Positions 887 through 39,689 of a stretch of 64,000 nt of DNA are shown here, piece after piece. The stretch is taken from contig OZ017795.1 of assembly GCA_963969395.1 (NCBI GenBank), positions 29,555,063-29,619,062 of the forward strand. Reading direction: 5' to 3'. Numbering within the stretch: the stretch's first letter is position 1; the number at the start of each line of letters is the position of its first letter. Below the pieces are notes generated by a model that worked only from the letters and a program-made list of their open reading frames with translations, had not been told where the DNA came from and did not search any database. This stretch comes from Pseudoscleropodium purum (taxonomy: Eukaryota > Streptophyta > Bryopsida > Hypnales > Brachytheciaceae). The position numbers were made by a program, and so were the translations under genes.

Positions 887-2508
887 CTAGTATCCTCCAT
901 GAGCTAGTAAGTTCTCTTCCTTTGTCAGCTCGATGGCCCCAACTAGATTAACCGCCTCTGTAGCATCGAGAAATGTGTTGGGAGCTCTAAGCCTTATACT
1001 CTCTACTCTAGTAAAGATGAATGCGTCCACTATATCCACAACTTCAAGTCTCACTCTAGCCTCTTTTTGTAAGACTACTTTCCAACCATGTCTACCTTCA
1101 ACATGTGAAAAGAATACTTGCATTGCTTAGCTCGAAAAATGAAGGGCTCCAACATGCGAGGTAGAGTACGTCGAAAGTTCACCAATAAGAAGTCGAACTC
1201 GTCTCGCGTATATGTGGAATGACCTCGAGTGTCTTGGATTTTCACCCAGTCACAACACAATAAGATGATGTGCATATTCAATGTACCATAATTCAGCTCC
1301 AATATGTCCTTTAGTACTCCCACGTAGTTCACAGTCGATTCCTCTCCATTATCTAACTACTATTGGGAAATGGAAGTGACACCACTATTGTAGCTCAACA
1401 AGTGCTTAGTTATGTTCATCTTCTACATGGAAGTGGTTATTGAACACAAGGACAGGTCTGTAGTGAATAGCCCTTTGTGTTGGTTTTTTACTCAGCAATA
1501 ATTGGTCCATGTTCATGGGGTTACTCAAGTCCACATCAACATTTTGCAATCTACGATGAATCCAAAACAACATTGTTAGGGTGCCTGGATTTTGAGCTGA
1601 TTCAATCCTCCACTCCCTACGGACAAAAGTACAAAATAATTCTCACTTACATGGGACAAGGGGCATACACATCCAAAAATTCATACCTTTGTTGTACTAT
1701 CAACCTCTAAAACTACAACAGAGACAATCAACTATAGTGACTACTCGATGACTTGACAAAGTTGTTGTACAGTCATTTTTTAGTTACATCTAATATATTG
1801 ACTTCTTCAAGACTTTTAGACGTCTTCCACACTATTGTAGACTCCTCCCTCGCCATGGAATACCTCAGCAATATAGTGCAAGGGAAAAAAAATAGAATAC
1901 GGCATCACAGTCATAGGTTCCATGCTTTACTTATGCCACCAAATCCTCTATAGAAGTTGAATTGGACAACACGTATTGGTGGGCTATGTCTCTCATCTCT
2001 AGAGTCGTTACATATGGCTTCTCGTCCCCCTAAGGACCTCCTTTGCATTTCCTATCTCCTCTTCTTCATCCCATACTCGTCTTGTAGTGCCCTCAAAACC
2101 TTGGAGGTATTCGGTTATAAATTTGATGCACTCATCCTATAGATACCCTTCTGCCACGTAGACCTTTGGATGGGCTATGTTCCGCACATAGCCCTTTAGC
2201 ACTTTCATGTATTGTTCCACAGGGTACATCCACCTTGCACTCACTAGACCGTACAAGTCCAACTCCTTTGCCAAATAATAGGGAAGATGAGTCATCATGT
2301 CAAAAAAGGATGGTGGGAACTCAATCTCCAACAATGCCATGGTTTTAGCCACATCTACTTCCAATGAGGGAAAGCCCAAGGGATTGTAAACCTTCGTGCA
2401 TAGACTTCAAAATACCTTGCAGATTCGCATGACTGCCATACGAGGACTAGGTTCCATCAACCCTCGAAGAGCAAGTGGCATGACCTGTTGCATTAAAATG
2501 TGGTAATC
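887..2508 (-). pseudogene. tnp2: CACTA A Tnp2 transposase, 3' portion (decayed)
   Basis: The minus strand encodes the C-terminal part of a Tnp2-family (En/Spm) transposase. At the insertion edge (about 2,430-2,508) it reads DYHILMQQVMPLALRGLM, a conserved Tnp2 signature. Next comes a DUF4218-like part (2,137-2,379) with SARWMYPVEQYMKVLKGYVR, then a DUF4216-like region (1,075-1,332) with LLCCDWVKIQDTRG, and a tail at 887-1,123. Frames change between pieces, partly through introns (about 1,330-2,130 is largely non-coding) and partly through decay. The upstream part of the gene continues at 5,799 beyond the 3.3-kb element, and the reading frame closes across that insertion. Confidence 0.75.
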
Positions 2509-2763
2509 TGTCGCAGCTTAGAATTTTGATTTTCTTAGTATACACCAAAATAGGAACGGAAACTAGTCATTAGCTAACCGGATCCGATTAGGTGGGGAAG
2601 GAAAACTCAGAATTAGCACGGAACGTGAAGTAGTGGGCTTCTTGGATCTAATCCGGTCAGGAGTAACTAACGACGGAAACGGAATGTAACACGGATTAGG
2701 TCTAGGACCGGATGATGATGATGAACCGGATTCATGATGACAAACCGGAAAGGGTCCAAGGAC

Positions 2764-2770
2764 TATATAA
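2764..2770 (+). promoter_or_regulatory. TATA box upstream of the 554-codon ORF
   Basis: TATATAA lies about 180 bp before the ATG at 2,948. It is kept in copy 2 (25,981-25,990, opposite strand). In copy 3 it is changed to CTATAAAAGG at about 39,408-39,418. Several ACCGGA/TCCGGT motifs lie just upstream. Confidence 0.5.
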
Positions 2771-2947
2771 GGAGGGGCTTTCACTGTTGCACCCCCTTTT
2801 AGAAACTCGACCTTGAGAGCGCGCGGTTGAGTTTTTGGAGTTTGTGCGTCTGGACGTTTGTGTTTTGTCTGTTTTGCTTCCGGTTGAGATCGGAGAGAGA
2901 GAGTGAGGAACGGGACGTGCGGCTAGAAGAGAGTGAGGTAGATGTGA

Positions 2948-4612
2948 GTGGGAATGCCTCCGCTACGTAGGTCGAGACAAGCGAGTCCCTCTGCAAGCGA
3001 GGTGAAGCTCCGGAAAGTCATTCCGGTTATTCCCTCCACAGAGCCGGAAAAGTCTCAACTCATGGATGATCTCAAATCCATGGGTTGCGTAGGGTTTGCC
3101 GAGAAACCCTGGGGTTTTAGGGAGGAGAGAATGGTCAAGGAGCTCCTCGGAAAGTTGTCCAACCAGTTTGACAACACCGTGAGGGGAACTCCCGTCAGCT
3201 GGAACGAGGGGATGTGGAGAGCGGTTTACGGTTTCCGGGCAGGAGGTTTGGGAATGGCGAGCCGGAAGGATGAGTTTGTCCGAGGGAAGTTTAAGGGAGC
3301 CGTCAACCCAAAGGACGGATACGCGGTCGAGGATTGCTTGGATGACCGACACCGTCGGCTCCTGCAATTCCTGGTTCCGGTTCTTCACCCGAAAAAGCCG
3401 ACCAGGGTGACGATCACCCTCGGCAACACCATTTTCGGTGCCCTCAGTGGTACCCGGAAAGTGGATTGGGCACGGATCATTTCCGATCTCGTGGCCCAGC
3501 TTGTTAGTAGGGTTGGGAAGAAAAGGGCCACTCCAGTGTGCCCTTATCTCTTCCACCTCTATCGGGAGAACCAAGTCCTCACCGATACGGAAGAGAGGGC
3601 GTGGAAGACGCAGGAAGTGCTCCTGAAGTATGGGGAGTCGGAGACGGATGACGAGGCGGAATCCGATTCCGGGTCAGACCGGGAGTCCAGCGAGGAAGAG
3701 GAGGAGCCGATGCCGCCGATCAAGCGACAGAAGCTGACGCCTCCACACAAGCGCGGGACGCCTCCCGGTCAAGACAAACCAGCCCCGAAGGAGAAACCGG
3801 AAGCCGAGAAGACCAATTCCGGGGGAGATCCGGATATGCAAGATCCGTTCAACGGTCTGATCAACGTCCTCTACAACATCAGGGCGGATTGGGAGGTCAA
3901 GCACAGGACGCTTTCGGCGATCGGAAAGTTGGTGGGTGCGGCACCGGACAGCAAATTGGCGGAACAAGTGGCGGAGTGCATCACGAATCCGGAAGAGACC
4001 CGGAAGCAGGAAGCAGAGATCCGCCGGTTGCAGGAGGAGGTGGATAACCTGAAGGCAACTCTTTTTGCCTATCGGGAAGACGTGACGGCCGCCCGGGAGA
4101 TGGCGGAAGAGACTCGGAAGATAGCCGAGCAGATCAAGGCGGTCCTGGGAGAGACCGGAACGGCCGCTGCCAAAGCGAAGCTCTTCGACGAGAAGATCCA
4201 CGAAGAGAAGAAACTATCCGGTTCCCGGATGGTCCGGATTCTCGCGGACTTCGCTGAGCAGGTGGAGACGACAATGGTGGAGGGGTGGAAGGCAGCGGAC
4301 CGGATCGAGGAGAGCAGCCGGAAGCTGACGGGAGCGACGTGCGACAAAGGTATTCATCTTTCTGACATCTCACTACCGGATCTCTTTCCGGACGCGACCA
4401 TTCAGAAGGATAGGAAGGATTGGACTCCTGAGTCCAAGAAGTCTGCACGGACTGGGACTCCGGGCACGAGACCGGATATCACCATCGACCTGGAGTCTCC
4501 ACCCGGATCGAATCCTGCGGAGGGGGAACGGGTCCGGAATTTGAGCGAAGTCTTCGAGGAGCTAGTCCCGGAGGTCGGAAGCCCGACGATAGGATCTCGA
4601 GTTGTAGGGTAG
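2948..4612 (+). CDS. Uncharacterised 554-residue element protein, copy 1
   Basis: This is an intact ORF and the only sizeable gene of the 3.3-kb element. I do not recognise its family. A globular region at residues about 40-215 contains VSWNEGMWRAVYGF and IFGALSGTRKVDWARI. An extremely acidic stretch follows at about 230-253, then a nuclear-localisation-like basic patch (IKRQKLTPPHKR, about 258-269) and a Pro/Lys/Glu-rich linker. Residues about 349-398 form a heptad-like charged coiled coil, and the C-terminus is polar. No DDE triad, zinc knuckle, reverse transcriptase, protease or membrane segment is visible. The layout suggests a nuclear, self-associating, possibly nucleic-acid-binding protein. 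That is inference. All three copies are full length and about 97% alike by eye. The ATG is the first one after the TATA box. Confidence 0.75.
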   Translation: MGMPPLRRSRQASPSASEVKLRKVIPVIPSTEPEKSQLMDDLKSMGCVGFAEKPWGFREERMVKELLGKLSNQFDNTVRGTPVSWNEGMWRAVYGFRAGGLGMASRKDEFVRGKFKGAVNPKDGYAVEDCLDDRHRRLLQFLVPVLHPKKPTRVTITLGNTIFGALSGTRKVDWARIISDLVAQLVSRVGKKRATPVCPYLFHLYRENQVLTDTEERAWKTQEVLLKYGESETDDEAESDSGSDRESSEEEEEPMPPIKRQKLTPPHKRGTPPGQDKPAPKEKPEAEKTNSGGDPDMQDPFNGLINVLYNIRADWEVKHRTLSAIGKLVGAAPDSKLAEQVAECITNPEETRKQEAEIRRLQEEVDNLKATLFAYREDVTAAREMAEETRKIAEQIKAVLGETGTAAAKAKLFDEKIHEEKKLSGSRMVRILADFAEQVETTMVEGWKAADRIEESSRKLTGATCDKGIHLSDISLPDLFPDATIQKDRKDWTPESKKSARTGTPGTRPDITIDLESPPGSNPAEGERVRNLSEVFEELVPEVGSPTIGSRVVG

Positions 4613-4643
4613 ATAGGATTTTAATTTCAGTTAGGAGTAGGAG

Positions 4644-4663
4644 CGGATCCGGATCCGGATCCG
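4644..4663. repeat. CCGGAT hexamer array
   Basis: Three head-to-tail CGGATC units lie just after the ORF. The array is kept in copies 2 (about 24,092-24,110) and 3 (about 37,516-37,534). It is the densest instance of the CCGG-centred motif that recurs through the element. Confidence 0.7.
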
Positions 4664-4762
4664 GCTCAACAGTATTAGGTTAGACCGGAAATTAGATTAG
4701 GGTGGCGGCGAACCCCACGGGTTTTCCGCTCCTTTTTGTGCTTTTAGGGTTTTCACCCTTTG

Positions 4763-4770
4763 TATATAAA
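4763..4770 (+). promoter_or_regulatory. Second TATA box, downstream of the ORF
   Basis: TATATAAA sits 150 bp past the stop codon and about 1 kb before the element's right end. It is present in all three copies (rc at about 23,981-23,990 and 37,409-37,418). A TATA box placed near the 3' side with about 1 kb downstream is what the U3-R-U5 order of an LTR would give. No transcript evidence is available. Confidence 0.5.
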
Positions 4771-5798
4771 TCGGTTCCTGCGATGGGAACTGGGAGTTGT
4801 TCATTTTGCAAACTTCTTGTACTTTTCTATTCTCTTCATTGTGTGTCTCTCTCCAGCGCGACAGGATTGTATGATGTGGAGTTAGGATAGTACGGGATGG
4901 TTTGCAAGTGATTTCTCCCCTTGGTGTTTATTTTCCGATCCTAGGTGCATGTGAGTAGGTACCGAAGAGTTGGGAGTGAACTTAGTTCCTTAGCACGTCT
5001 AGAGTTTGAGATTCCGGGTGAGAAAGCCGTTGTTAGGCTAGGCGGGTAGGGAGGGATTCCTTAGCTGCGCTAGAACTCCCGGGTGGGAAATCCGGTTGAG
5101 TGTCTGATCTCCTGTGAGGTCTCACCACCCGTATGGGTAACGGAAGAACTTTAGTTGATGTTGGAACGGACGGGTGCACTTGTAACCACCTGTCTTCGCA
5201 CGGATCGGAAGTAGCATCAAGGTCGTTGTAGTGTGAGAGGGTCGAGTGTGGGGTCTTTGTGTGACCTACAACCCGGATTGCTATCTGGGTTGTTGTGAAG
5301 GACCAAACCGGATCCGGATTAGCTTAGGAGTTTAGAAGGTAGGACAGTGGGTCTTCAGCCACTATAAGTCACGGAAGGAGTGGTGGGCCTACCACTCTCA
5401 AAATTAAGCGGCGACCCCTTTGATGGTGAAACAGAGGCAAAACCAAACCGGATAGGATTACGGGTACAGGATGACCATCCGGACCGGATTGGTCAGGACG
5501 GATTTCCAGGATCGGAAATTGTGAGATCCTGGGATTTGGGTATTTGTACGGACCGGATAGTTAGTAGGACCGGAAGAAGGAGTAATCCGGTCTATAGTTA
5601 TCCGGTGTGGTGGTGTTTCTGGTTCTAGATCTAGGACCGGAAAGTAAGATTGGCATACTGACTGAGCTTAACTGCTTAATAGAGCTAGATACTTCACAGG
5701 ATCTCGTGGGTTCGATCTTTAGAGTCACTTAGTTATACTCTAGAGCGATTTTTGTGAGTATAATGGGGAATTGACCTGCCCTGTGCTGCGACATAATC

Positions 5799-8230: not shown

Positions 8231-8642
8231 CTTTGCACTTGCTTGGGCCGGTTTTGAGAGACCCACTAGCTTGGGAGGGGGATTTTTTGTACCAGCTGCT
8301 TTAGATGCCACCTTTGATCTTCTTGCAGTCGTTGTGGTCTTCCCGCCGTGTCGAGGCCGGCTTGACTCACCTGCGACTTCAATGTGTTCCTACAATCACA
8401 TGAAACTAGAGTGTTTCACATTTGCACTCCCATAGACTACTAGGCCATCTTCATGACATGATAGCGCAGGCGCATTAGAGGAGGAACTCAAGTCTTGTCT
8501 GCACTGTTCACTTTGTATTTCCACCTCTATAGAAACTGACTGCGTCGCGCTTGACATCACATGGTGTCATGCACAACATCCAACTTTATGTCCACCTTGA
8601 CACACATTTCTCTTTAGTAAGGCAAGAGTGGCACCTTCTACA

Positions 8643-8963
8643 CAGGGTTGACGAATCTCAACGTCCGCCCCAAAATAGCGTCCGTTTTTCGGACGTCCGG
8701 ACGCTAGCGGACGCAGCATCTCGACCGCCGTCGGAAAGCGGACGGGCGGGGCGGGGCGGGGTGGACGGATGGGGCGGACGGCCCGAGGCGGACGCCCAGA
8801 TCGTGCGGACCAGATCAGTCCGCGCGTCGATCGGACGGCCGTAATCGGGCGGACGGGCGGACAGGCGAATGTTGCGTCCGCCGAACCGCGAATGTCAGCG
8901 GACTCTGTGGACACAACGTCCGCGTCCGGTCGTCCCGGACGTCCGGACGTCGTGTCAACCCTG
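8643..8963 (-). mobile_element. CpG-rich hAT-type miniature element, copy 1
   Basis: The ends are CAGGGTTGAC and GTCAACCCTG, flanked by a perfect 8-bp duplication cttctaca (8,635-8,642 and 8,964-8,971). CAGGG ends with 8-bp duplications define hAT-superfamily insertions. The 321-bp interior has no gene and is extremely CpG-rich, with repeated GGACGTCC palindromes and CGGACG units. It lies in an intron of the TnpA-like gene of element B, in opposite orientation to the other two copies. Confidence 0.9.
8744..8775 (+). other. G-quadruplex-prone G-run cluster
   Basis: Five or more runs of three or four G separated by one to a few bases (GGGCGGGGCGGGGCGGGG) lie inside the miniature element. The pattern satisfies the usual G3+N1-7 rule for a G-quadruplex. 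Folding has not been tested. Confidence 0.55.
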
Positions 8964-11442: not shown

Positions 11443-11690
11443 TGTTAGAGATTCTGTACATACTAGCGTAGACCATGTACAGTTAGCCTTAGGAGTTGCT
11501 TTAGACACTTAGTTAGTGTTAGAGTCCATGGGTATTGCTCGTAGTCAAAGGCAGCCCAATGTAGTTAGTTATCCCACATTTGTGGATAACTAGGAAAGGC
11601 TTCTCGCTTAAGTTGAGCCCACTTATGTGGCTTGGTGTCGTTCTACCATCTAAGTAAAGCCTTTCTCTCATACATAACTTTGTAATCTCA
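11443..11690 (+). repeat. Copia 5' LTR
   Basis: 248 bp, TGTTAGAG to AATCTCA. The same seven-base tail ctcaata continues past the end in both LTRs, so the 3' border is uncertain by three bases. A recognisable initiator-Met primer-binding site is not obvious downstream. Confidence 0.85.
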
Positions 11691-11944
11691 ATAGGTTATG
11701 GGCCCACGCACTTGGAGTTGCGCTTAAGGGAGAATTTCATATCATTTGGAGGCGATCTTGGAGCTTGGAGGAGCAATCAGCGTTTTGTGTTTTATTCACC
11801 TACAAACCATATGGTGTGAGTTATTTGGAGTTTTTTGGTTTGTGAGGTTTTGAGTGCATTTTGGATGAGAGATTGCTTATGGTAGTAATCACACCTTGTG
11901 AGGGCTGGTTGCATGCTCCTAGTTTGAATTTGTGCTTAGAAGAG

Positions 11945-12180: not shown

Positions 12181-12740
12181 TGAGAGGCAAGTAGGCTACT
12201 TTGGAGTTTGGGTGATCCAACTAGGGGTGTTGGAGGCCATTGTTGCCCTTGAGGTGCTGATTGTAAGTAGTAGCCTCCATTTAGGGCTGATTGGAAGTTT
12301 GGAGCTTCATTAGGGTCTAAATTGGAGGTGGAGAAGCTGTTTGGGAGGCCTTGGCCGGGTTTACTGTTTTCGGACAGGTGAGTTGGCCATGGCTTGGTTT
12401 CAAGAAATTAGAGGATGGGGTATTGATCACAGATTTCAAGGTAGAGAATGGTTTATTGATTACAGGACCAAGGTATGGTAGAGGATGAAGGTCATGTCCA
12501 GGTGATGAGCCATGCCTGTGAACTGCGATTGGATTTGTATGCCTGCGCGGGCAGCTAACATGAATGTAGAACGCTTGGGCTGCTCGGGCGAAGTGCCTCT
12601 TACTGTAGTGGACTTCTTGGTACTTAAGGCCATGTAGTTTTGTATTGTGCACAGAAGTGCAAGTGTAAATAATCGGAATTGTTTTCACTCATTTGAACGC
12701 TGCATTTAGCGCCGACTTTAAAATTTTTTTTTTTTTTTTT

Positions 12741-12915
12741 CTGTGATCACTTGTATCGGCTACCAGCCGACACCAACAGAAGAAGACCATTTTTGTTTTT
12801 TATCTGTGACCACTTGTATCGGCTGCCAGCCGACACCAGCAGAAGAAGACCATTTTTTTGTTTTTTATCTGTGACCACTTGTATCGGCTACCAGCCGACA
12901 CCAGAAGAAGAAGAC
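12741..12915 (+). repeat. Tandem repeat, about 64 bp x 3, upstream of gag
   Basis: Three head-to-tail copies contain cacttgtatcggctaccag, starting near 12,747, 12,810 and 12,875, and end in gaagaagacc. A T-run precedes the array. The upstream in-frame ATG at 12,751 lies within it, so the ATG at 12,955 is the more likely gag start. Confidence 0.8.
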
Positions 12916-12954
12916 CCTTCCAGTGAAATCCAACACAGTGGGAGCTGCGTCACC

Positions 12955-15900
12955 ATGGCATCCAGTGGAGGAGAGGGTGTGCGCATCATCGACAAGTTTG
13001 ATGGAGATAACTTTGGCATGTGGAAGTTCAAGATGGAGATGATCCTTGCGGAGAAGGACTTGTGGGACGTGGTGGATGGGAGTGAGGAGCCTCCAAGTGA
13101 CGATGCGGATCCAAAGACCAAGAAGGCATGGGAGAGGAAGGAGAAGAAGGCCTTTGCTCTCATTGCCATCAACCTTGTGGATCGCCAAATTGCACACATT
13201 CGCCATTGCAAGGGACCAGCCCAAGCGTGGACCACCCTTTGCAACATCCATGAGACCAAGAGCCTCTCCAACCTCCTATTTCTTCGCCGCAAGTTCTTCA
13301 CTAGCAAGATGCAAGAGGAGGACGATTTGTTGGATCACGTCAAGAAGGTCAAGGCTCTTGCGGATGAGTTGGCTTGTTTGGAGTTCCCCATGACCGAGGG
13401 AGATGTGGTGATGACCTTGTTGGCAAGCTTGCCATCGTCTTATGAGTTCCTCATCACCGCATTGGAGACGAGGCCCACCAAGGAGCTGACCATGGAGTTT
13501 GTGACCGCACGCTTGATGCATGAAGTGACCAAGCGCAAGGAGAATGAGGCCCAAAGGGAGGGATCAACGCTTGTCTCAAGACATGGAAAAGGTGGCAACA
13601 CCAAGGCGTTCAAGGAGACAAGGACGTGCTTCAAGTGTGGCAAACCGGGCCACATTGCTAGGCATTGCAAGATCAGCCAAGGCAAGGACAAGGAGAATGC
13701 ACACCCAGCTTCCAAAGAGGAGGAAGAAGAGGGTTTCGCCTTTGCAGCCAATGGAGGAGGGGAGAAGGCCAACATGTTCACTTGGATTGTGGACTCGGGG
13801 GCCATGCAACATATGACCAGCCATCGAGATGCCTTCCACACGTATCAGCCCATTTCGGGGAAGAAGATTTATTTGGAGACAATGGCATGGTGGAGGCCCT
13901 TGGCATGGGGGAGATCCTTGTGGAGGTGCAAGTGAAGGGGAAGACCAGGAGGATCCAAATCCAAGAGGTGCTCCATGTCCCCAAGTTGCATGCCAACTTG
14001 CTTTCGGTGAGCAAATTGTCTTTGGGAGGTTTGAAAGTGCATTTCAACATGGTGGGGTGTGTGGTGCGTTCACCAAGTGGAATTTTGATTGCATCAGCCC
14101 CTCGTGAGGGCAACTTGTACCACCTCCATTTCACCAAGGTGAATGGCACTTCCTTGGCATGTGTTGCCCAAGGATCAGCCCATGAAGACCTTTTGGAGCT
14201 TTGGCATAGGAGGCTTGGGCACTTGAATGTGAAGAGCATGAAGAGCCTCCAACACATGGTGAAGGGTCTGAACCTCTCTTCTTGCAAGCATGATTGGAGT
14301 TCTATAGTGTGCAAGGGGTGCATTGAGGGCAAACAAGCGAGGCAGCCCTTCCCCAAAGATTGGGCAACGCGCGCCACCAAGCCATTGCAGCTTGTGCATT
14401 CGGATGTGTGCGGGCCGATGAAGACCACGTCTATAGGAGGAACAAGGTATTTTGTGACCTTCATTGATGATTTCTCTCGCAAGATTTGGGTGTATATGTT
14501 GAAGTGCAAAAGTGAGGTGTTTGGGCGTTTTGAGATTTGGAAGGCCCTCGTGGAGGCTCAATCGGATTGTAAGGTGAAGGTGCTGTGGTCGGATAATGGA
14601 GGGGAGTATGTGTCCAAGGTCTTTGAGGCGTACTTGAAGGCCCATGGCATTGAGCACCACACTTCCGCACCCTACACCCCTCAACAAAACGGCGTAGCGG
14701 AGCGTGCAAATCATACCATTGTGGAGATGGCAAGGGCCATGATTTATGGCCAAGGTTTGAAGCTTGAGCTTTGGGGGGAGGCGATGTCTAATGCGGTTTA
14801 CACGAGGAACCGGTGCCCCACCCAAGCGTTGACAAGCAAGACACCGCAAGAAGCTTGGAGTGGGACAAGGCCCCACGTATCTCACATGCGCACCTTTGGG
14901 TGCATTGCCTATGCATTGGTCCCAAGTGCCAAGAGGACGAAATTGGATCCCAAGGGCATCAATGCCTTTTCCTTGGTTATTGTGAGGGAACCAAGGCTTA
15001 TAGGCTGATGAATGTGGAGACCAAGGCCATCATCAAGTGCCGAGATGTGACCTTTTTGGAGGATGGAGGAGCTGCTCCCAAGCTCTTGGAGATGAGCCCA
15101 AGTGGGAGAAGTGGAGGACCAGCCCAAAAGATGGGCACAACTCCAAGAGTGCACATAGAAGATGGAGATGAAGAGCAAGGTGCTGAAGATGAGGACTTTG
15201 TGGAGCCCAAGAAGAAGGTGACCACACCTCAAGTGAAGAGATCAGCGGCGGCTTCTCCAAGCACTTCACCAAGGGAGCAAGAGCATGATCAGCCCTTGGA
15301 GGAGCAAGATCAGCCCATTGGTAAGGAAGATCAAGGCACGGAGGAGCCACGTTATCCAACGAGGACCCACAAGCCCCCTGGAGATTGGTGGCTGAATCAC
15401 ATTCTTCCCCAACAACAAGAAGAACAAGCCAATGTGGCTTTTCTTGGAGATCCATCCACGCTTGGAGAGGTGTTGCGTTGCGAAGATGCAAGCAAGTAGG
15501 AGGTGGCCATGCAAGAGGAGTACAAGGCCCTCATTGACAAAGGGACATGGGAGCTTGCAGCCCTCCCTCCCAAGAGATCAAGTGTGAGTTGTAAGTGGGT
15601 TTTCTCTACCAAAAGGGATGCTTTGGGTCACATTGTGAGGTACAAGGCAAGGTTGGTTGCTAGGGGTTTTTCCCAAGTGGAAGGGAAAGAGGTCATCTAC
15701 ATGGATCAGCCCCAAGGCTTTGTGCAAGAAGGCCAAAAGCATTTGAAGTGCAAGTTGAAGAAGGCACTCCCCGGGTTGAAGCAATCAGGGAGAGTTTGGG
15801 ATCGAGATATTGATGGCATGTTTGTGAAGAAGGGGTTTCGAAGGAGGCCATTTGGCCAAGGAAGCTCTTGGCTGATGTTGGTCTTGCGCAAGAGGGGAGC

Positions 15901-16155: not shown

Positions 16156-16403
16156 TGTTAGAGATTCTGTACATACTAGCGTAGACCATGTACAGTTAGC
16201 CTTAGGAGTTGCTTTAGACACTTAGTTAGTGTTAGAGTCCATGGGTATTGCTCGTAGTCAAAGGCAGCCCAATGTAGTTAGTTATCCCACATTTGTGGAT
16301 AACTAGGAAAGGCTTCTCGCTTAAGTTGAGCCCACTTATGTGGCTTGGTGTCGTTCTACCATCTAAGTAAAGCCTTTCTCTCATACATAACTTTGTAATC
16401 TCA
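16156..16403 (+). repeat. Copia 3' LTR
   Basis: Identical by eye to the 5' LTR. Preceded by the polypurine tract. The downstream flank (taaatagaaaggca) rejoins a degenerate sequence family seen again around 16,970. Confidence 0.85.
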
Positions 16404-16539
16404 ATACTAAATAGAAAGGCATTGTAGCACTCCCCTTCTGCGGTAGCATGCCCTATTATCCGCAGCCCCTGCTATCATCCTACAACGTCCATTCCATTGG
16501 AATAAAATGTCACTACAGTTTTGACTTTGTACACCTGGT

Positions 16540-18776: not shown

Positions 18777-21700
18777 TTGAACATGGCAGGGTGTCAAAAT
18801 TCCAATCGTCGCCGACAAGGTGATACCATTCGTATTTCTAAAGATGGACGCACTCTACGCCACATACCGCTGGGTGACATCATTCTACACACTGAATTGA
18901 GAGTTGCAACAGAAAAGAACATCCAATCATTCCGGTGCCCTTGTAGAGATTGCAAGGGTGGATACCAGAAAAGCATTCAAGTCATACGCCGTCACCACGC
19001 AGAAGCTGGTCGTGACCCATTTCTTGATAGGTCATTATTGGGTGGAGACCCCCCCGAGGGCTATCCACCTCAAGGAATGTGGGTTGAAGATATTGCTTAC
19101 GATGACGACATCATTGACAATGCTACGTACGAAATCGGAGCTGACATACAAGACATGGATTCAGGTGATGTAGATCCACAGGAGGCTGACGTGGATGTGA
19201 ACCGTCCTCTAGATGAGTTTCACGAGGTCCACCGGCAAGTGATGGAGGCCTTGGGTAGAGGAGATGCACTACATGGAGAGGCTGAGGCTGGGATGGAGTT
19301 CGTAGAGGAAGATGATGGTGTTGGCGACAATATAGTTGGACTGGAAGATCTCTACAGACAAGCTACTACACCAGTGTACCCGAACTCGGGAACAAGTGTA
19401 GTATCAGCCACAATCATTATCATGAACATGTGCACGGTGTTTCGTGTGAGCAATAAGTTCATAGATGAATTGTTTCAATTTCTATCTTTGGACTTACTAC
19501 CAAAAGGCAATAAGCTGCCCCGTACCCATTATGAAGCGCGGAGGAGCATTCGCAAGCTAGATCTCCACTACAACAACGTGCATGCTTGTCCAAATGGATG
19601 CATTCTTTTTGAAGATGAGCACTCCACGCTTGATAGTTGTCCAAAGTGTAGGAGCTCACGCTGGATGGATGGGACGAATAGTATTCCCTCGAAGGTCATT
19701 CGACATTTTTCCCTCATTCCTCGTTTGAAGAGGATGTGGAGGTCATCAGAGATTGCGTGTATGTTGACAGGCTACACCAAGCATGTCAGCAATGATGGCA
19801 TCATGCGTTCCGTGGTGGACAGCCTTGCGTGGAAGCATGTCGATAACAACATCGCATTCGGCAACTTTGGTATTGAACCTCGGAATATGCGGCTTGCTAT
19901 TGCTTTAGATGGTGTGAATCCATTCAAGCTTAACAACACAAATTGGTCTACTTGGCCTATCCTGATTTTGATATACAACTTTGAGCCCTGGTTTGTCACC
20001 AAGAAATTTTTCATTTCTTTATGCATACTTGTCTCGGGAAAGCACTCACCAACATCCAAAGGCATTGGTGTCTTCATACGTCCATTGGTGAAAGAATTGT
20101 TGCAATTGTGGCATGGTGTTTCAGCCCTTGATTTCTCCAAACCAGAAGGCAACCGTACTTTCACCTTACGTGCTTTGGTCATGTGGACAATCTCTGATTT
20201 TCCGGCATTTGGGCTCATTTCTGGTTTATGTTGTAAGGGGTATAAGGGTTGCCCTTCTTGCGGCAAAGAGACAGATGCCAGGATGGCTAGGATGGTGACG
20301 TTCTTCCTAATGGGAGAACAAAAGGTTCGAAGATAGTATATGGTGGCATTCGTCGTTACTTACCTAGACATCATCCGTATCGGCGCAATAAGAGATTCAA
20401 TGGCCAGGAGGAGCATCGTGAGAGGCCACAACTGCAAACATCTGAAGACATCATCCGTTATGCTGCGTGGCGGGAATCGTACTTGGACCTAGGAAGAAAA
20501 GAAAATGGGCCTGATGACCCAGTCCACCTCACGGGAGTGAAGCACCTCTGTGCACTTTATGAGCTTCCATATTGGGAGGTCAGTCTATTGTTTCCATGCA
20601 TGCTTCTCAGCTTTGTACTGCAGTCCCATTCTATAATGTGTTGCACGCGACATCTATGAAGACACAAATGGTTTCCCTGTCCCTTTTGACATCGTAGATG
20701 ATGTCAAAAGTGACATTCATGCTGACGTGGTGAGGCTATACGCGTACTTGTGAAGAATGTCTAGGAAGGCTCAAACTGAGGCACAGTGTTGTTCCTTGAG
20801 GAAGGCAAAAGAAAAGAAATTTTTCGGTTCTTACTGACTTTGTCTATGTGATGTTGGCAGCATTTGTTGGAGCCTTTTATCTTGGATGCTATGCATTGTG
20901 AGAAAAATTTCTGCGAAAACATATTGAAGACACTATTTGCCATGAAGGATAGTGCCGGTAGTCGATTGGACGTTGAGCAATTGGGCATTCGGGAAGAATT
21001 ATGGTTGCAACCTCCGCGACGACAGAACGACGAGTACTACATGCCACATGCGCCTTTCATATTAACGGCAAGCGAGCGTAGAGAGTTTGTTGCTATAGTG
21101 TCCGCAATTCGGACCCCCACAAACTATGTTGGGAGCATTCACAAGCGCTTAGTCGATGGAAAGCTACAATACATGAAGACACATGATTATCATGTGCTCA
21201 TGCAATATGTACTCAATAGACTTCCATTTTTAGTGAATTACACTCTTAAAGTGTCACATGTTCGAACCATGTGGGGATAAGAGGATGTTCTCAAACGTTG
21301 CTTGAATGTTACAAGTATCATGGCCATGTTGCTTGTCACGACTACGGTGTGTATAATCATAGGAAGGTGCGTCGTATGATGGGCCATTGCATGTTATCCT
21401 AAACCTATGCACATTTTGCTTGTTTGAGTGTATGTCCAATAAAACACAGTAGTACACGGCATCTATTGTGGGACTTTGTTGATTCCAGTAGCCAATGGTA
21501 CACTGCACCGGCTTTGGAGTAATTTCTTGGTTTTTTAATTACCTCTTGTGCAGATCCTCCCCATTGCAATTCGCAATGTACTGGACGAGCGAGTGTGGTT
21601 ACCTATAATTAAAATGAGCAGGGTTTTCCAAAGACTATGTGCAAAGGAGGTACGACTTGTAGACAAGGATGACATGATGCGTGATGTAGTCATGGCAACA

Positions 21701-22956
21701 TGTGAGTTTGAGAAAGAATTTCCAACAACCTTCCTCAACATCATGTCGCATCTCCCCTTGCATCTAGTAGAGCAATTATTCAAATGCGGGCCCGTGCATT
21801 GCCGCTGGATGTACCCAATAGAGTGATACATGAAAACGTTGAAGGACTATGTACGGACCTTTGCACATCCAGAGGGTAGCATTGCTGAAGGATACCGAAT
21901 GGAAGAGACGCTTGGATTTTGCACACAGTACATGCGTCAATACAAAGGAACAACTCAACGTGTTTGGGACGCCATGGAGGAGCCCATCATGAATGATGAA
22001 ATTCTTCGGAGCAACTCTAAACGAAGAAGAAAGATGTCCAATGAGTTCCGCAACTACGCTCATGCCTTTGTCTTGGACAATGCAGCTTGCTTAGATGAGT
22101 GGCGACAGTGAGTACTCTTGTACAGTCATTTCAGTTCAAGTTCATGCACTTAGCCTGATTTTGTGTTGCTGGTTTCTTTGTTTCTTGCCACGGAGGACAC
22201 TTTTGAGAACATCATAGGACACGTGGACTGTGACATCACGCGCAACCCACTTTCCTGGCGGTCGTGAAGGTGTCTGTCATAGTTGACGTCATTTGCGACA
22301 TAGAGATGTTACAGTGGACATCAGAGACGACAAAGTCTGGGCTCAGAAATGACCGGTAGCCCAGCGTATAGCTTGTAGTGTAATTGTCATGTCAATTTGC
22401 ATTGTAATAGTTGTCTAACTATGTGTGCTTGGAATGTCTTGTAGGCAATATCTAACAGCGAGAGGACAACGGTGGGAAGAGAGGGAGGCCTTTCGCAGAC
22501 AATTCCGCCGTCAACAACCTTCAGTGTCCGTACGCTATCCCAGCAATCTTCTAGACTTACCTCCTTTTCCGACATGGTTGAGTACCCAAGTGCAAGTACT
22601 ACGAGATGGTGGTGAGCATGTCGAAGCCGATGTTGTAGAGTATGCACAACCGCCACAGCGATATGCCATCTCACATCGCCAAATGTATGCCTTCGGCATG
22701 CACTTGCGTGTTTATAGTGCAAAAGGGGCCCATGTCACTTGCGATTCAGGAATTGCAGCCTCATTTACAGAGCAACTTGGGTGGGGGCTTCGCAATGAGC
22801 GCCCGATAGAAAGAACCAAAGAGTACGTGGGATACCTTCAAGAGATCTTAGAGTTGGACTATAGAAATCATTGCACCACGGTCCTTGTTTGCGATTGGGT
22901 TCGCGGTACAGAAGATCTTCGATGCCCTAACATTCGAAGAGACCAATATGGATTCA

Positions 22957-25900
22957 TGTCGCAGCACAGGGCAAGTCAATTCCCCATTATACTCACAAAA
23001 ATCGCTCTAGAGTATAACTAAGTGACTCTAAAGATCGAACCCACGAGATCCTGTGAAGTATCTAGCTCTATTAAGCGGTTAAGCTCAGTCAGTATCCCAA
23101 TCTTACTTTCCGGTCCTAGATCTAGAACCAGAAATACCACCACACCGGATAACTACAGACCGGATTACTCCTTCTTTCGGTCCTACTAACTATCCGGTCC
23201 GTACAAATACCCAAATCCTAGGATCTCACAACTTCCGATCCTAGAAATCCGTTCTGACCAATCCGGTCCGGATGGTCATCCTGTACCCGTAATCCTATCT
23301 GGTTTGGTTTTGCCTCTGTTTCACCATCAGAGGGGTCGCCGCTTAATTTTGAGAGTGGTAGGCCCACCACTCCTTCCGTGACTTATAGTGGCTGAAGACC
23401 CACTGTCCTACCTTCTAAACTCCTAAGCTAATCCGGATCCGGTTTGGTCCTTCACAACAACCCAGATAGCAATCCGGGTCGTAGGTCACACAAAGACCCC
23501 ACACTCGACCCTCTCGTACTACAACGACCTTGATGCTACTTCCGATCCGTGCGAAGACAGGTGGTTACAAGTGCACCCGTCCGTTCCAACATCAACTAAA
23601 GTTCTTCCGTTACCCATACGGGTGGTGAGACCTCACAGGAGATCAGACACTCAACCGGATTTCCCACCCGGGAGTTCTAGCGCAGCTAAGGAATCCCTCC
23701 CTACCCGCCTAGCCTAACAACGGCTTTCTCACCCGGAATCTCAAACTCTAGACGTGTTGAGGAACTAAGTTCACTCCCAACTCTTCGATACCTACTCACA
23801 TGCACCTAGGATCGGAAAATAAACACCAAGGGGAGAAATCACTTGCAAACCAACTCGTACTATCCTAACTCCACATCATACAATCCTGTCGCGCTGGAGA
23901 GAGACACACAATGAGGAAAAAAGAAAGGTACAACAAAATTTGCAAAATGGACAACTCCCAGTTCCCATCTCAGGAACCGATTTATATACAAAGGGTGAAA
24001 ACCCTAAAAGCACAAAAAGGAGCGGAAAACCCGTAGGGGTCCGCTGCCACCCTAATCTAATTTTCCGGTCTAACCTAATACTGTTGAGCCGGATCCGGAT
24101 CCGGATCCGCTCCTACTCCTAACTGAAATTAAAATCCTATCTACCCTACAACTCGAGATCCTATCGTCGGGCTTCCGACCTCCGGGACTAGCTCCTCGAA
24201 GACTTCGCTCAAATTCCGGACCCGTTCCCCCTCCGCAGGATTCGATCCGGGTGGAGACTCCAGGTCGATGGTAATATCCGGTCTCGTGCCCGGAGTCCCA
24301 GTCCGTGCAGACTTCTTGGACTCAGGAGTCCAATCCTTCCTGTCCTTCGCCATAGTTGCATCCGGAAAGAGGTTCGGTAGTGAGATATCTGAAAGGTGAA
24401 TACCTTTGTCGCACGTCGCTCCGGTCAGCTTCCGGCTGCTCGCCTCGATCCGGTCCGCTGCCTTCCGCCCCTCCACCATTGTCGTCTCCACCTGCTCAGC
24501 GAAGTCCGCGAGAATCCGGACCATCCGGGAACCGGATAGTTTCTTCTCTTCGTGGATCTTCTCGTCGAAGAGCTTCGCTTTGGCAGCGGCCGTTCCGGTC
24601 TCTCCCAGGACCGCCTTGATTTGCTCGGCTATCTTCCGAGTCTCTTCCGCCATCTCCCGGGCGGCCGTCACGTCTTCCTGATAGGCAAAAAGAGTTGCCT
24701 TCAGGTTATCCACCTCCTCCTGCAACCGGCGGATCTCTGCTTCCTGCTTCCGGGTCTCTTCCGGATTCGTGATGCACTCCGCCACTTGTTCCACCAATTT
24801 GCTGTCCGGTGCCGCACCCACCAACTTGCCGATTGCCGCAAGCGTCTTGTGCTTGACCTCCCAATCCGCCCTGATGTTGCAGAGGACGTTGATCAGACCG
24901 TTGAACGGATCTTGCATATCCGGATCTCCCCCAGAATTGGTCTTCTCGGCTTCCGGTTTCTCCTCCGGGGCTGGTTTGTCTTGACCGGGAGGCGTCCCGC
25001 GCTTGTGTGGAGGCGTCAGCTTCTGTCGCTTGATCGGCGGCATCGGCTCCTCCTCTTCCTCGCTGGACTCCCGGTCTGACCCGGAATCAGATTCCGCCTC
25101 GTCATCCGTCTCCGACTCCCCATACTTCAGGAGCACTTCCTGCGTCTTCCACGCCTTCTCCTCTATGTTGGTGAGGACTTGGTTCTCCCGATAGAGGTGG
25201 AAGAGGTAAGGGCACACTGGAGTGGCCCTTTTCTTCCCAACCCTACTAACAAGCTGGGCCACGAGATCGGAAATGATCCGTGCCCAGTCCACTTTCCGGG
25301 TACCACTGAGGGCACCGAAAATGGTGTTGCCGAGGGTGATCGTCACCCTGGTCGGCTTTTTCAGGTGAAGAACCGGAACCAGGAATTGCAGGAGCCGACG
25401 ATGTCGGTCATCCAAGCAATCCTCGACCGCGTATCCGTCCTTTGGGTTGACGGCTCCCTTGAACTTCCCTCGGACAAACTCATCCTTCCGGCTCGCCATT
25501 CCCAAACCTCCTGCCCGGAAACCGTAAACCGTTCTCCACATCCCCTCGTTCCAGCTGACGGGAGTTCCTCTCACGGTGTTGTCAAACTGGTTGGACAACT
25601 TTCCGAGGAGCTCCTTGACCATTCTCTCCTCCCTAAAACCCCAAGGTTTCTCGGCAAACCCTACGCAACCCATGGATTTGAGATCATCCATGAGTTGAGA
25701 CTTTTCCAGCTCTGTGGAGGGAATAACCGGAATGACTTTCCGGAGCTTCACCTCGCCTCCAGAGGGACTCGCTTGTCTCGACCTACGTAGCTGAGGCATT
25801 CCCACTCACATCTACCTCACTCTCTCCTAACCGCACGTCCCGTTCCTCACTTCCTCTCTCCGATCTCAACCGGAATCAAAACGAACAGAACACAAACACA

Positions 25901-26279
25901 CAGACGCACAAACGACAAAAACTCAACCGCGCGCTCAAGGTCGAGTTTCTAAAAGGGGGTGCAACAGTGAAAGCTCCTCCTTATATAGTCCCTGGACCCT
26001 TTCCGGTTTGTCATCATGAATCCAGTTTACCATCATGAATCCGGTTTACCATCATAATCCGGTTCATCATCATCATCCGGTCCTAGACCTAATCCGTGTT
26101 GCATTCCGTTTCCGTCGTTAGTTACTCCTGACCGGATTAGATCTAAGAAGCCCACTACTTCACGTTCCGTGCTAATTCTGAGTTTTCCTTCCCCACCTAA
26201 TCGGATCCGGTTCCTTAATGACTAGTTTCCGTTCCTATTTTGGTGTATACTAAGAAAATCAAAATTCTAAGCTGCAACA
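22957..26279 (-). mobile_element. 3.3-kb TG...CA element, copy 2
   Basis: The ends are TGTCGCAGC and GCTGCAACA (one changed base), flanked by the 5-bp duplication attca (22,952-22,956 and 26,280-26,284). It is inserted in the last exon of tnp2 of element B; without it and one duplicate the codons read QYGF then TIANFN in frame. Same internal order as copy 1, reversed. Confidence 0.85.
24141..25805 (-). CDS. Uncharacterised 554-residue element protein, copy 2
   Basis: Full-length, uninterrupted homologue of the ORF at 2,948-4,612, same length to the residue. Differences are scattered substitutions (for example Q at residue 5, NIEEK for DTEER near 213), with no indels. The acidic block, basic patch and coiled coil are all kept. 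Its TATA box is at about 25,981-25,990. Function unknown. Confidence 0.75.
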   Translation of the reverse strand: MGMPQLRRSRQASPSGGEVKLRKVIPVIPSTELEKSQLMDDLKSMGCVGFAEKPWGFREERMVKELLGKLSNQFDNTVRGTPVSWNEGMWRTVYGFRAGGLGMASRKDEFVRGKFKGAVNPKDGYAVEDCLDDRHRRLLQFLVPVLHLKKPTRVTITLGNTIFGALSGTRKVDWARIISDLVAQLVSRVGKKRATPVCPYLFHLYRENQVLTNIEEKAWKTQEVLLKYGESETDDEAESDSGSDRESSEEEEEPMPPIKRQKLTPPHKRGTPPGQDKPAPEEKPEAEKTNSGGDPDMQDPFNGLINVLCNIRADWEVKHKTLAAIGKLVGAAPDSKLVEQVAECITNPEETRKQEAEIRRLQEEVDNLKATLFAYQEDVTAAREMAEETRKIAEQIKAVLGETGTAAAKAKLFDEKIHEEKKLSGSRMVRILADFAEQVETTMVEGRKAADRIEASSRKLTGATCDKGIHLSDISLPNLFPDATMAKDRKDWTPESKKSARTGTPGTRPDITIDLESPPGSNPAEGERVRNLSEVFEELVPEVGSPTIGSRVVG

Positions 26280-26616
26280 ATTCACCATCGCGAACTTCAA
26301 CCGCATGGATGGAAAAGTCCATCCTGACTCATTTGCCTTTCCTTTACATTGCCAACAAGTTTTCTTTTCCGATGACACAAGAAGGCCAGGGTGGAAGGTT
26401 GTGTGTCGCACAGATATTCGGGGTAGACGTGGGGAGCTGCAAGTGAATCAATCTGTGCCTACCATGACTGATGTAGGGAATGACAATGACTTTGCTGAGT
26501 TGCAAGCGCAGATGTTGGAAGTGGAGCCCGAGAGAGAAGCCGCAGTAGCCGATGGTATACACATCCCAGCAGCAGTGGAGTCTTCAACCGAGGATGACAC
26601 TACTATAGAACAGTAG

Positions 26617-34940: not shown

Positions 34941-35258
34941 CAGGGTTGACAGGACATTCGGACGTTCGGGACGTGCGGACACGGACGTTGTGTCCGCAGC
35001 GTCCGCTGACATTCGCGGACGTCATCCACCCCATCCACCTGTCCGCCCGTCCGTCCGCCCCAGTCCACCCTCGTCCGCCCTGTCCCGCCCTGTCCGCCCC
35101 CACCCGTCAGCCCCTACCCATCCGCCCCCGTCCACCCACGTCCACCCTCGTCCGCCTTCCGACGGCGGGAGGGACGCTGCGTCCGCTAGCGTCCGTGCGT
35201 CCGGACGTCCGGAAAACGGACGCTATTTTGGGGCGGACGTTGAGATTCATCAACCCTG
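34941..35258 (+). mobile_element. CpG-rich hAT-type miniature element, copy 3
   Basis: Begins CAGGGTTGAC and ends ATCAACCCTG (one changed base), flanked by a perfect 8-bp duplication gttgtgct (34,933-34,940 and 35,259-35,266). 318 bp. The centre is a C-rich run of GTCCGCCC/GTCCACCC units. It lies in an intron between 34,491 and 35,388 of the TnpA-like gene of A. Confidence 0.9.
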
Positions 35259-36385: not shown

Positions 36386-39300
36386 TGTCGCAGCACAGGG
36401 CAGGTCAATTCCCCATTATACTCACAAAAATCGCTCTAGAGTATAACTAAGTGACTCTAAAGATCGAACCCACGAGATCCTGTGAAGTATCTAGCTCTAT
36501 TAAGCAGTTAAGCTCAGTCAGTATGCCAATCTTACTTTCCGGTCCTAGATCTAGAACCAGAAATACTACCACACCGGGTAACTACAGACCGGATTACTCC
36601 TTCTTCCGGTCCTACTAACTATCCGGTCCGTACAAACACCCAAATCCCAGGATCTCACAACTTCCGATCCTGGAAATCCGTCTTGACCAATCCGGTCCGG
36701 ATGGTCATCCTGTACCCGTAATCCTATCCGGTTTGGTTTTGCCTCTGTTTCACCATCAGAGGGGTCGCCGCTTAATTTTGAGAGTGGTAGGCCCACCACT
36801 CCTTCCGTGACTTATAGTGGCTGAAGACCCACTGTCCTACCTTCTAGACTCCTAAGCTAATCCGGATCCGGTTTGGTCCTTCACAACAACCCAGATAGAA
36901 ATCCGGGTCGTAGGTCACACAAAGACCCCACACTCGACCCTCTCGTACTACAACGACCTTGATGCTACTTCCGATCCGTGCGAAGACAGGTGGTTACAAG
37001 TGCACCCGTCCGTTCCAACGTCAACTAAAGTTCTTCCGTTACCCATACGGGTGGTGAGACCTCACAAGAGATCGGACACTCGACCGGATTTCCCACCCGG
37101 GAGTTCTAGCGCAGCTAAGGAATCCCTCCCTACCCGCCTAGCCTAACAACGGCTTTCTCACCCGGAATCTTAAACTCTAGAAGTGCTGAGGAACTAAGTT
37201 CACTCCTAACTCTTCGGTACCTACTCACATGCACCTAGGATCGGAAAATAAACACCAAGGGGAGAAATCACTTACAAACTAACTCGTACTATCCTAACTC
37301 CACATCATACAATCCTGTCGCGCTGGAGAGAGATACACAACGAAAAGAATGGAAAGGTACAAGAAGTTTGCAAAATGAAAAACTCCCAATTCCCATCTCG
37401 GGAACCGATTTATATACAAAGGGTCAAAACCCTAAAAGCACAAAAAGGAGCGGAAAACCCGTGGGGGTCCGCCGCCACCTAAATCTAACTTCCGGTCTAA
37501 CCTAATACTATTGAGCCGGATCCGGATCCGGATCCGCTCCTACTCCTAACTGAAATTAAAATCCTATCTACCCTACAACTCTAGATCCTATCGTCGGGCT
37601 TCCGACCTCCGGGACTAGCTCCTCGAAGACTTCGCTCAAATTCCGGACCCGTTCCCCCTCCGCAGGATTCGGTCCGGGTGGAGACTCCAGGTCGATGGTG
37701 ATATCCGGTCTCGTGCCCGGAGTCCCAGTCCGTGCAGACTTCTTGGACTTAGGAGTCCACTCCTTCCTGTCCTTCGCCATAGTTGCATCCGGAAAGAGGT
37801 CCGGTAGAGAGATGTCCGAAAGGTGAATACCTTTGTCGCACGTCGCTCCCGTCAGCTTCCGGCTGCTCTCCTCGATCCGGTCCGCTGCCTTCCGCCCCTC
37901 CACCATTGCCGTCTCCACCTGCTCGGCGAAGTCCGCGAGAATCCGGACCATCCGGGAACCGGATAGTTTCTTCTCTTCGTGGATCTTCTCGTCGAAGAGC
38001 TTCGCTTTGGCCGCTGCTGTTCCGGTCTCTCCCAGGACCGTCTTGATCTGCTCGGCCACCTTCCGAGTCTCCTCCGCCATCTCCCGAGCGGCCGCCACGT
38101 CTTCCTGATAGGCGAAAAGTGTTGCCTTCAGTTTATCTACCTCCTCCTGCAACCGGCGGATCTCGGCTTCCTGCTTCCGGGTCTCTTCCGGATTCGTGAT
38201 GCATTGCGCCACTTGTTCCGCCAAGTTGCTGTCCGGTGCAGCACCCACCAACTTGCCGATTGCCGCAAGCGTCCTGTGCTTGACCTCCCAATCCGCCCTG
38301 ATGTTGCAGAGGACGTTGATCAGACCGTTGAACGGATCTTGCATATCCGGATCTCCCCCGGAATTGGTCTTCTCGGCTTCCGGTTTCTCCTCCGGGGCCG
38401 GTTTGTCTTGACCGGGAGGCGTCCCGCGCTTGTGTGGAGGCGTCAGCTTCTGTCGCTTGATCGGCGGCATCGGCTCCTCCTCTTCCTCGCTGGACTCCCG
38501 GTCTGACTCGGAATCGGATTCCGCTTCGTCATCCGTCTCCGACTCCCCATACTTCAGGAGCACTTCCTGCGTCTTCCACGCCTTCTCCTCTATGTTGGTG
38601 AGGACTTGGTTCTCCCGATAGAGGTGGAAGAGGTAAGGGCACACTGGAGTGGCCCTTTTCTTCCCAACCCTACTAACAAGCTGGGCCACGAGATCGGAAA
38701 TGATCCGTGCCCAGTCCACTTTCCGGGTACCACTGAGGGCACCGAAAATGGTGTTGCCGAGGGTGATCGTCACCCTGGTCGGCTTTTCCGGGTGAAGAAC
38801 CGGAACCAGGAATTGCAGGAGCCGACGGTGTCGGTCGTCCAAGCAATCCTCGACCGCGTATCCGTCCTTCGGGTTGACGGCTCCCTTGAACTTCCCTCGG
38901 ACAAACTCATCCTTCCGGCTCGCCATTCCCAAACCTCCTGCCCGGAAACCGTAAACCGCTCTCCACATCCCCTCGTTCCAGCTGACGGGAGCTCCCCTCA
39001 CGGTGTTGTCAAACTGGTTGGACAACTTTCCGAGGAGCTCCTTGACCATTCTCTCCTCCCTAAAACCCCAAGGTTTCTCGGCAAACCCTACGCAACCCAT
39101 GGATCTGAGATCATCCATGAGTTCAGCCTTTTCCGGCTCTGTGGAGGGAATAACCGGAATGACTTTCCGGAGCTTCACCTCGCCTCCAGAGGGACTCGCT
39201 TGCCTCGACCTACGTAGCTGAGGCATTCCCACTCACATCTACCTCACTCTCTCCTAGCCGCACGTCCCGTTCCTCACTTCCTCTCTCCGATCTCAACCGG

Positions 39301-39689
39301 AAGCAGAACAGACAAAACACAAACGCTCAGACGCACAAACGACAAAAACTCAACCGCGCACGCTCAAGGTCGAGTTTCTAAAAGGGGGTGCAACAGTGAA
39401 AGCTCCTCCTTTTATAGTCCCTGGACCATTTCCGGTTTGTCATCATGAATCCGGTTTACCATCATAATCCGGTTCATCATCATCATCCGGTCCTAGACCT
39501 AATCCGTGTTGCATCCCGTTTCCGTCGTTACTTACTCCTGACCGGATTAGATCCAAGAAGCCCACTACTTCACGTTCCGTGCTAATTCTAAGTTTTCCTT
39601 CCCCACCTAATCGGATCCGGTTAGCTAATGACTAGTTTCCGTTCCTATTTTGGTGTATACTAAGAAAATCAAAATTCTAAGCTGCGACA
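36386..39689 (-). mobile_element. 3.3-kb TG...CA element, copy 3
   Basis: Perfect TGTCGCAGC/GCTGCGACA ends, flanked by the 5-bp duplication tcttt (36,381-36,385 and 39,690-39,694). It is inserted in the phosphatase-like exon of element A; the frame closes as LKSFLSCYFQSYVV without it. Internal order as in copies 1 and 2. Confidence 0.85.
37568..39232 (-). CDS. Uncharacterised 554-residue element protein, copy 3
   Basis: Third intact copy, same length, with substitutions only (for example AELMDDLRSMG near the N-terminus, APVSW at about 81-85). Closer by eye to copy 2 than to copy 1. Three uninterrupted copies with no indel suggest recent amplification, or selection on the protein while the element was active. 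Function unknown. Confidence 0.75.
   Translation of the reverse strand: MGMPQLRRSRQASPSGGEVKLRKVIPVIPSTEPEKAELMDDLRSMGCVGFAEKPWGFREERMVKELLGKLSNQFDNTVRGAPVSWNEGMWRAVYGFRAGGLGMASRKDEFVRGKFKGAVNPKDGYAVEDCLDDRHRRLLQFLVPVLHPEKPTRVTITLGNTIFGALSGTRKVDWARIISDLVAQLVSRVGKKRATPVCPYLFHLYRENQVLTNIEEKAWKTQEVLLKYGESETDDEAESDSESDRESSEEEEEPMPPIKRQKLTPPHKRGTPPGQDKPAPEEKPEAEKTNSGGDPDMQDPFNGLINVLCNIRADWEVKHRTLAAIGKLVGAAPDSNLAEQVAQCITNPEETRKQEAEIRRLQEEVDKLKATLFAYQEDVAAAREMAEETRKVAEQIKTVLGETGTAAAKAKLFDEKIHEEKKLSGSRMVRILADFAEQVETAMVEGRKAADRIEESSRKLTGATCDKGIHLSDISLPDLFPDATMAKDRKEWTPKSKKSARTGTPGTRPDITIDLESPPGPNPAEGERVRNLSEVFEELVPEVGSPTIGSRVVG

Follow-up and report, generated by a model that had tools for sequence, protein, structure and literature searches.

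Among the described mobile elements that counter their own silencing, one close to the case presented here is VANDAL21, an Arabidopsis Mutator-like DNA transposon. Its protein VANC21 is reported to bind YAGTATTAY motifs that are dense in VANDAL21, where methylation is lost (PMC5735166), and a loss of methylation through an element's own protein is also described for TnpA of Spm (PMC10398659). A gene inside a long terminal repeat (LTR) is described for mouse mammary tumour virus (MMTV), the LTR of which encodes the superantigen Sag (PMC3026287), while LTRs of up to ~5 kb and extra open reading frames (eORFs) are described for OTA (Ogre/Tat/Athila) elements (Neumann 2019). In a 2026 paper on LTR elements of sunflower, VANC is cited for the VANDALs, a Tekay extra open reading frame (ORF) with a dsRNA-binding-like product is mentioned, and the question whether such ORFs in Tork and Athila influence the epigenetic landscape is left open (PMC12844716). 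The subject here is a 3.3-kb unit found in three copies in 64,000 nucleotides of the moss Pseudoscleropodium purum (assembly GCA_963969395.1, contig OZ017795.1, given below as C1:29555063-29619062 and called the window), together with the gene that the unit carries. The unit is the LTR of a Ty3/gypsy retrotransposon, and the predicted N-terminal domain of the encoded protein resembles VANC21.

No LTR-encoded ORF in plants was found in the open-licence literature searched with a few phrasings. Genes inside LTRs are rare, and none is known to us from a plant.

The 3.3-kb unit is the LTR of a Ty3/gypsy retrotransposon

A first-pass annotation of the window had described three copies with common ends (TG...CA) and different 5-bp target site duplications (TSDs), and this description stands. 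Copy 1 is matched at 95.9% identity by copy 2 and at 95.7% by copy 3, each copy is enclosed by an exact TSD of its own (plus-strand letters in Table 1), and the end 9-mer TGTCGCAGC occurs six times in the window against 0.17 expected. Five of the six are element ends, and for the sixth, at 46994-47002, BLAST gave no match with the 3.3-kb unit; one end of copy 2 reads TGTTGCAGC, a variant permitted by the R in the end sequence as first written. It was also rightly noted that neither an LTR pair, a primer-binding site (PBS) nor pol lies inside the window copies. The reading preferred at that stage, that the whole 3.3 kb is one LTR, was borne out in the window's own assembly (313 Mb, 52 contigs), where gag-pol interiors lie between pairs of the unit.

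The exact 25-base 5' end of the LTR has 638 genomic occurrences and, among the 100 places listed, same-strand 5' ends often lie ~9,216 bases apart. An early lean towards a transposon moving as a 3.3-kb unit, which came from the almost exclusively solo flanks of the best genome matches, was overturned by this regular spacing of 9.2 kb, which decided the LTR question. Two inter-LTR stretches were read (L073 and L074), and in both the LTR end is followed by 11 bases, TGGCGCCGCTGCCGGGGAT, a 537-residue ORF, a 1,372-residue ORF, AGGAAGGGGTAA and the start of the next LTR. The first ORF of L073 has Pfam matches to gag and CCHC zinc-knuckle families and the second to reverse transcriptase, RNase H and integrase, in that order; no Pfam match was obtained for a protease in these ORFs, for a chromodomain in pol, or for a second RNase H region in a scan that lacked a profile for archaeal-type RNase H (aRH). 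The PBS, TGGCGCCGCTGCCGGGGAT, is a 19-nt exact complement of the 3' end of the host tRNA-Asp(GTC) plus CCA; the tRNA pattern has eight genomic matches, with identical letters in all, and both of those fetched were called tRNA-Asp. The polypurine tract (PPT), AGGAAGGGGTAA, stands before the 3' LTR. Exact junctions number 63 for LTR/PBS and 58 for PPT/LTR, and 52 of the 63 pair with a same-strand PPT junction (11 are unpaired). The interior measures 5,897-5,913 bases in 50 of these 52 pairs and exactly 5,912 in 41, so that the search for two direct copies around gag-pol, suggested with the first-pass annotation, returned 50 pairs of nearly constant interior.

In the one element read at both ends, C1:12209530-12222051, both LTRs have 3,305 bases with two substitutions between them, the TSD TTGGT lies outside the pair, and the LTR gene is intact in both. 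Because of the paired LTRs, PBS, gag, pol, PPT, near-constant interior and TSD, the 3.3-kb unit is identified as the LTR of a young multi-copy Ty3/gypsy retrotransposon with elements of 12.5 kb. A non-autonomous DNA transposon with 5-bp duplications, the alternative first named, would suit the 9-bp inverted ends and the 36 of 39 examined copies that stand singly with their own exact TSD, but it is excluded for all practical purposes by the PBS, gag-pol and PPT between paired copies and the TSD outside the pair. At C1:324197, 333413 and 342629 there is a tandem of three LTRs with two interiors.

With a TSD around each and the unit serving as an LTR elsewhere in the genome, the window copies are solo LTRs, as had been proposed, and are the remnants expected from LTR-LTR recombination. 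Thirty-nine near-complete copies were compared: three from the window, 34 from a genome match list (40 complete rows, five unread; its order, by similarity to the window copy, brought mainly solo LTRs to the top) and two met in fetched stretches. An exact TSD of its own encloses 36 of the 39, and 35 of these TSDs are distinct; the remaining three comprise one TSD with one mismatch, one nested recombinant and one copy without a TSD. Solo or broken LTRs outnumber full elements by roughly 8:1, since there are 638 ends against 63 and 58 junctions, counted with patterns that differ in length and allow zero mismatches. The family is judged young and recently active because the LTR pair of the one element measured differs by 0.06%, and its activity may therefore be observable.

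The sole copy of the 39 without a duplication (C44:13409479-13412762; L011:2179-5462) has purine-rich upstream sequence that is not the family PPT. In a copy on C48 (L048:501-4322), LTR bases 1-510 are fused to a complete LTR with a single TSD, CAAGG, around both, which looks like a nested insertion followed by recombination. A loose PBS pattern gave 32 matches, and the flanks of the 20 fetched (spacing 2) were unrelated or element-internal save for two with a common flank. These two are solo LTRs at C44:1175818 (L070) and C45:9309573 (L072), which share the TSD TGTGG as well as their flanks and were carried along in a duplicated stretch that contains long open frames. At C44:15425209-15431796 (seen in the match list only) complete, partial and inverted pieces of the LTR lie end to end, an arrangement that could have come from aberrant or self-integration.

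The LTR gene and the CCGGAW array

The ORF is unbroken in all three window copies, as the first-pass annotation had it; the length of 554 codons given there holds when counted from the GTG at 2948, and from the ATG at 2954 there are 552. The whole frame is kept in 20 of the 39 copies. The ratio of nonsynonymous to synonymous substitution (dN/dS, NG86), counted from the codon after the ATG, is 0.24-0.27 in the three window pairs, and it is 0.24 against a 94% identical subfamily; between two elements, gag gives 0.08 and pol 0.10. A chance ORF was rejected in view of the intact copies and of a dN/dS well below 1, and the substitution pattern indicates that the gene is under purifying selection. 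At the first, second and third codon positions there are 46, 27 and 85 variant sites common to at least two copies, and 88, 79 and 119 singleton sites, as expected of a gene that is constrained in active elements and nearly free after insertion.

Table 1. Solo LTRs, their genes and TATA-like boxes, by position in the window
Feature	Position	Strand	Remarks
Solo LTR copy 1	2509..5793	+	3,285 bp; the unit flanks gag-pol elsewhere in the genome
TSD of copy 1	left 2504..2508, right 5794-5798		TAATC
First TATA-like box, ACTATATAAG	2762..2771	+	Putative promoter of the LTR gene
LTR gene, copy 1	2954..4612	+	552 codons
Second TATA-like box, TATATAAAT	4763..4771	+	Putative promoter of genomic RNA
Solo LTR copy 2	22957..26279	-	3,323 bp; TSD ATTCA at 22952-22956 and 26280-26284
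LTR gene, copy 2	24141..25799	-	552 codons, intact
Solo LTR copy 3	36386..39689	-	3,304 bp; TSD TCTTT at 36381-36385 and 39690-39694
LTR gene, copy 3	37568..39226	-	552 codons, intact

One TATA-like box lies upstream of the gene and one downstream. The exact ACTATATAAG string is present in 30 of the 39 copies, window copy 3 not being among them, and the TATATAAAT box in 38. The second box would start the genomic RNA and the first the LTR gene; the gene would then lie in U3. The opposite order would yield a 3-kb strong-stop DNA, which seems unlikely.

The protein family had not been recognised at first sight, and Pfam likewise gave the LTR protein no family above cut-off. Relatives down to 29% identity were found in metagenome and other assemblies, 108 in one search and 191 in another (~8,000 candidates scored in each), and none in viral_contigs, genome_contigs and phages. 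A precomputed Pfam domain was attached to none of the 108 and to two of the best 120 of the 191 (PF03999, MAP65/ASE1 type), and a Pfam scan of 55 family members gave a best E-value of 0.00042, for PF03999. Several relatives are on contigs of 2-4 kb, which is only suggestive of an LTR location for these too.

Structure prediction, which had been put forward as a check, answered in part. Residues 10-219 are VANC21-like in a comparison of the predicted N-terminal domain with the DNA-complexed domain of VANC21, and are followed by a low-confidence acidic stretch (residues 229-295, with KRQK at 257) and by predicted helices (residues 298-463). Foldseek returned nothing at E<=0.001 for the whole protein against PDB and viral structures, nor for the N-terminal model.

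The element is also packed with one short motif. LTR copy 1 contains 60 occurrences of CCGGA or its complement and the 5,912-base interior 84 (50 and 67 with overlaps counted once), compared with 32 in the other 54 kb of the window (overlaps once) and 73 in 105.7 kb of other flanking DNA. The 144 aligned sites of LTR and interior give [A][A/T]CCGGA[A/T], 129 of them having A or T as the letter that follows CCGGA, and the motif is dispersed over both strands, coding sequence included, leaving one of 36 250-base bins without a site. The three coding frames together hold 116 CCGGA where a synonymous codon shuffle predicts 49.5. Taken singly, the LTR gene has 33 with 15.3 predicted, pol 61 with 22.2 predicted and gag 22 with 12.2 predicted, the gag count being matched by the highest of 1,000 shuffles. 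The mutually overlapping CGGAA, CCGGA, ATCCG and ACCGG take ranks 1-4 of the 512 five-base classes, with z from 12.4 to 6.2 (standard deviation of z across all classes, 1.6). The element thus has in common with VANC-type systems a dense array of a single short motif that is uncommon outside it. Over the 39 copies, one of 2,455 cells shows a difference at an A/T letter of the motif; the median A/T-letter difference rate of other frequent five-base words is 0.42%, and four rarer words show none. C/G letters differ by 1.97% inside the motif and by 2.20% outside. Conservation of the motif among copies is supportive, not strong.

The 94% identical LTR subfamily (C44:17004650-17007750; L077) has a gene of equal length, keeps the second TATA-like box and has a similar motif density. 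Open frames of 556 and 557 residues suggest further subfamilies.

A proposed role for the LTR protein

On balance, and with guarded confidence, the LTR protein can be regarded as a sequence-specific DNA-binding factor that would act on the near-palindromic CCGGAW sites, because its predicted N-terminal fold is like the DNA-complexed domain of VANC21 and the remainder has an acidic stretch, the KRQK basic cluster and long predicted helices. These helices and the other features of the remainder suggest that it may also dimerise. More tentative is the step, drawn by analogy, in which binding would take DNA methylation off the element and related elements, or block it there, and the family would stay transcribable. 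With the gene in U3, reverse transcription would put a copy of it in both LTRs, every solo LTR would retain promoter plus gene, and hundreds of solo LTRs could provide the factor in trans. To a conserved gene in an LTR, a motif array and a fold match, the proposal would add expression, binding and loss of methylation. Taken whole, it describes an LTR retrotransposon that may possess its own anti-silencing system, made up of an LTR-encoded VANC-fold protein and an element-wide CCGGAW address code, with the solo LTRs as a bank of helper genes that would keep full-length copies active; this is possible, though slightly harder to credit than the methylation step by itself.

The rival that survives best, itself rather doubtful, is that the LTR gene is an ordinary extra Gypsy ORF with another role (Gag helper, Env-like or captured host gene) that moved into the LTR, the VANC21 match being a common helical arrangement. 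Extra ORFs are often found in plant Gypsy elements; the Env-like role was dropped since the LTR protein has no membrane segment. It is improbable that the protein binds CCGGAW simply to activate transcription from its own LTR promoters and leaves DNA methylation unaffected: the acidic stretch beside KRQK, the long predicted helices and the two TATA-like boxes would fit such an activator, but the motifs run through gag and pol at near-LTR density instead of clustering at promoters, with the single empty bin noted above. No more probable is an enrichment of CCGGAW that is independent of the protein and arises by selection at the codon or RNA level or by biased mutation in the lineage. That the motif occurs on either strand and in each of the three reading frames is in keeping with this, and so is the codon choice: CCG is the most frequent proline codon in each of the three ORFs and CGG the most frequent arginine codon in two of them. 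However, the motif is more abundant than in shuffles that preserve the protein and its codon usage (z ~10), it is equally strong in the non-coding LTR after the ORF (CCGGAT 8 against 0.35 expected, ATCCGG 8 against 0.30), and the other transposon ORFs of the window that were tested have 0, 0 (copia) and 2 (tnp2) matches.

A gene placed in the LTR alters the biology of the element, as the gene and its putative promoter stay behind in each solo LTR when gag-pol is lost by recombination. Should the protein be a VANC-like factor and recognise the CCGGAW array, there would be evidence for a sequence-specific counter-defence of a retrotransposon against DNA methylation, and a simple test system of one protein, one motif and hundreds of target copies. 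VANC-like factors would then be a module common to Mutator-like transposons and Gypsy elements and not an invention of the VANDALs.

Window context and comparison with known systems

Elsewhere in the window, identical 251-bp direct repeats (11443-11693 and 16156-16406) bracket ORFs at 12751-15499 that we take by their appearance to be copia-like, which makes a recently inserted Ty1/copia element probable; a pair of short repeats is found at 12727-12919. The ORF at 18777-20336 has a Transposase_21 (tnp2) match (E 2e-48), by which it is assigned to a CACTA-type transposon. Three pieces of a short dispersed repeat (8636-8963, 29630-29766 and 34941-35258) are pairwise 75-89% alike.

With MMTV the element shares a protein-coding gene within an unusually long LTR (described as ~1.3 kb in MMTV, 3.3 kb here), whereas the virus, host and protein are, by their descriptions, unrelated, and Sag mRNAs are spliced from upstream promoters where here the ORF has a TATA-like box ahead of it within the LTR. 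The OTA elements resemble it in a Gypsy pol without a chromodomain match, in long LTRs and in an extra ORF, but its interior is filled by gag-pol and one RNase H region was matched, a second being the Tat aRH trait, by Pfam without an aRH profile. An interior of nearly all gag-pol is also described for Phygy and Selgy, the Gypsy clades of Physcomitrella and Selaginella; these are described as rather short, unlike the OTA elements with eORFs, and the NCGN target described for Phygy contrasts with the 36 exact TSDs here, none of which contains CG.

The VANC21 gene is not known to lie in a terminal repeat. Other differences set the two apart: VANDAL21 is a DNA transposon and the present element a retrotransposon; the VANDAL21 motif has another sequence and is mainly non-coding, in one orientation and often tandem, whereas the sites here are dispersed over both strands and in coding sequence too; and a profile search of PDB sequences up to E 10 found no similarity to VANC21. 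The likenesses are a similar predicted fold in a mobile-element protein and an element rich in one short motif that is rare elsewhere, as described for VANDAL21 (Hosaka 2017). Because the differences are real, the LTR protein is not classed as VANC; likened to it by fold and motif array, it may work as VANC does, for which anti-silencing has been demonstrated.
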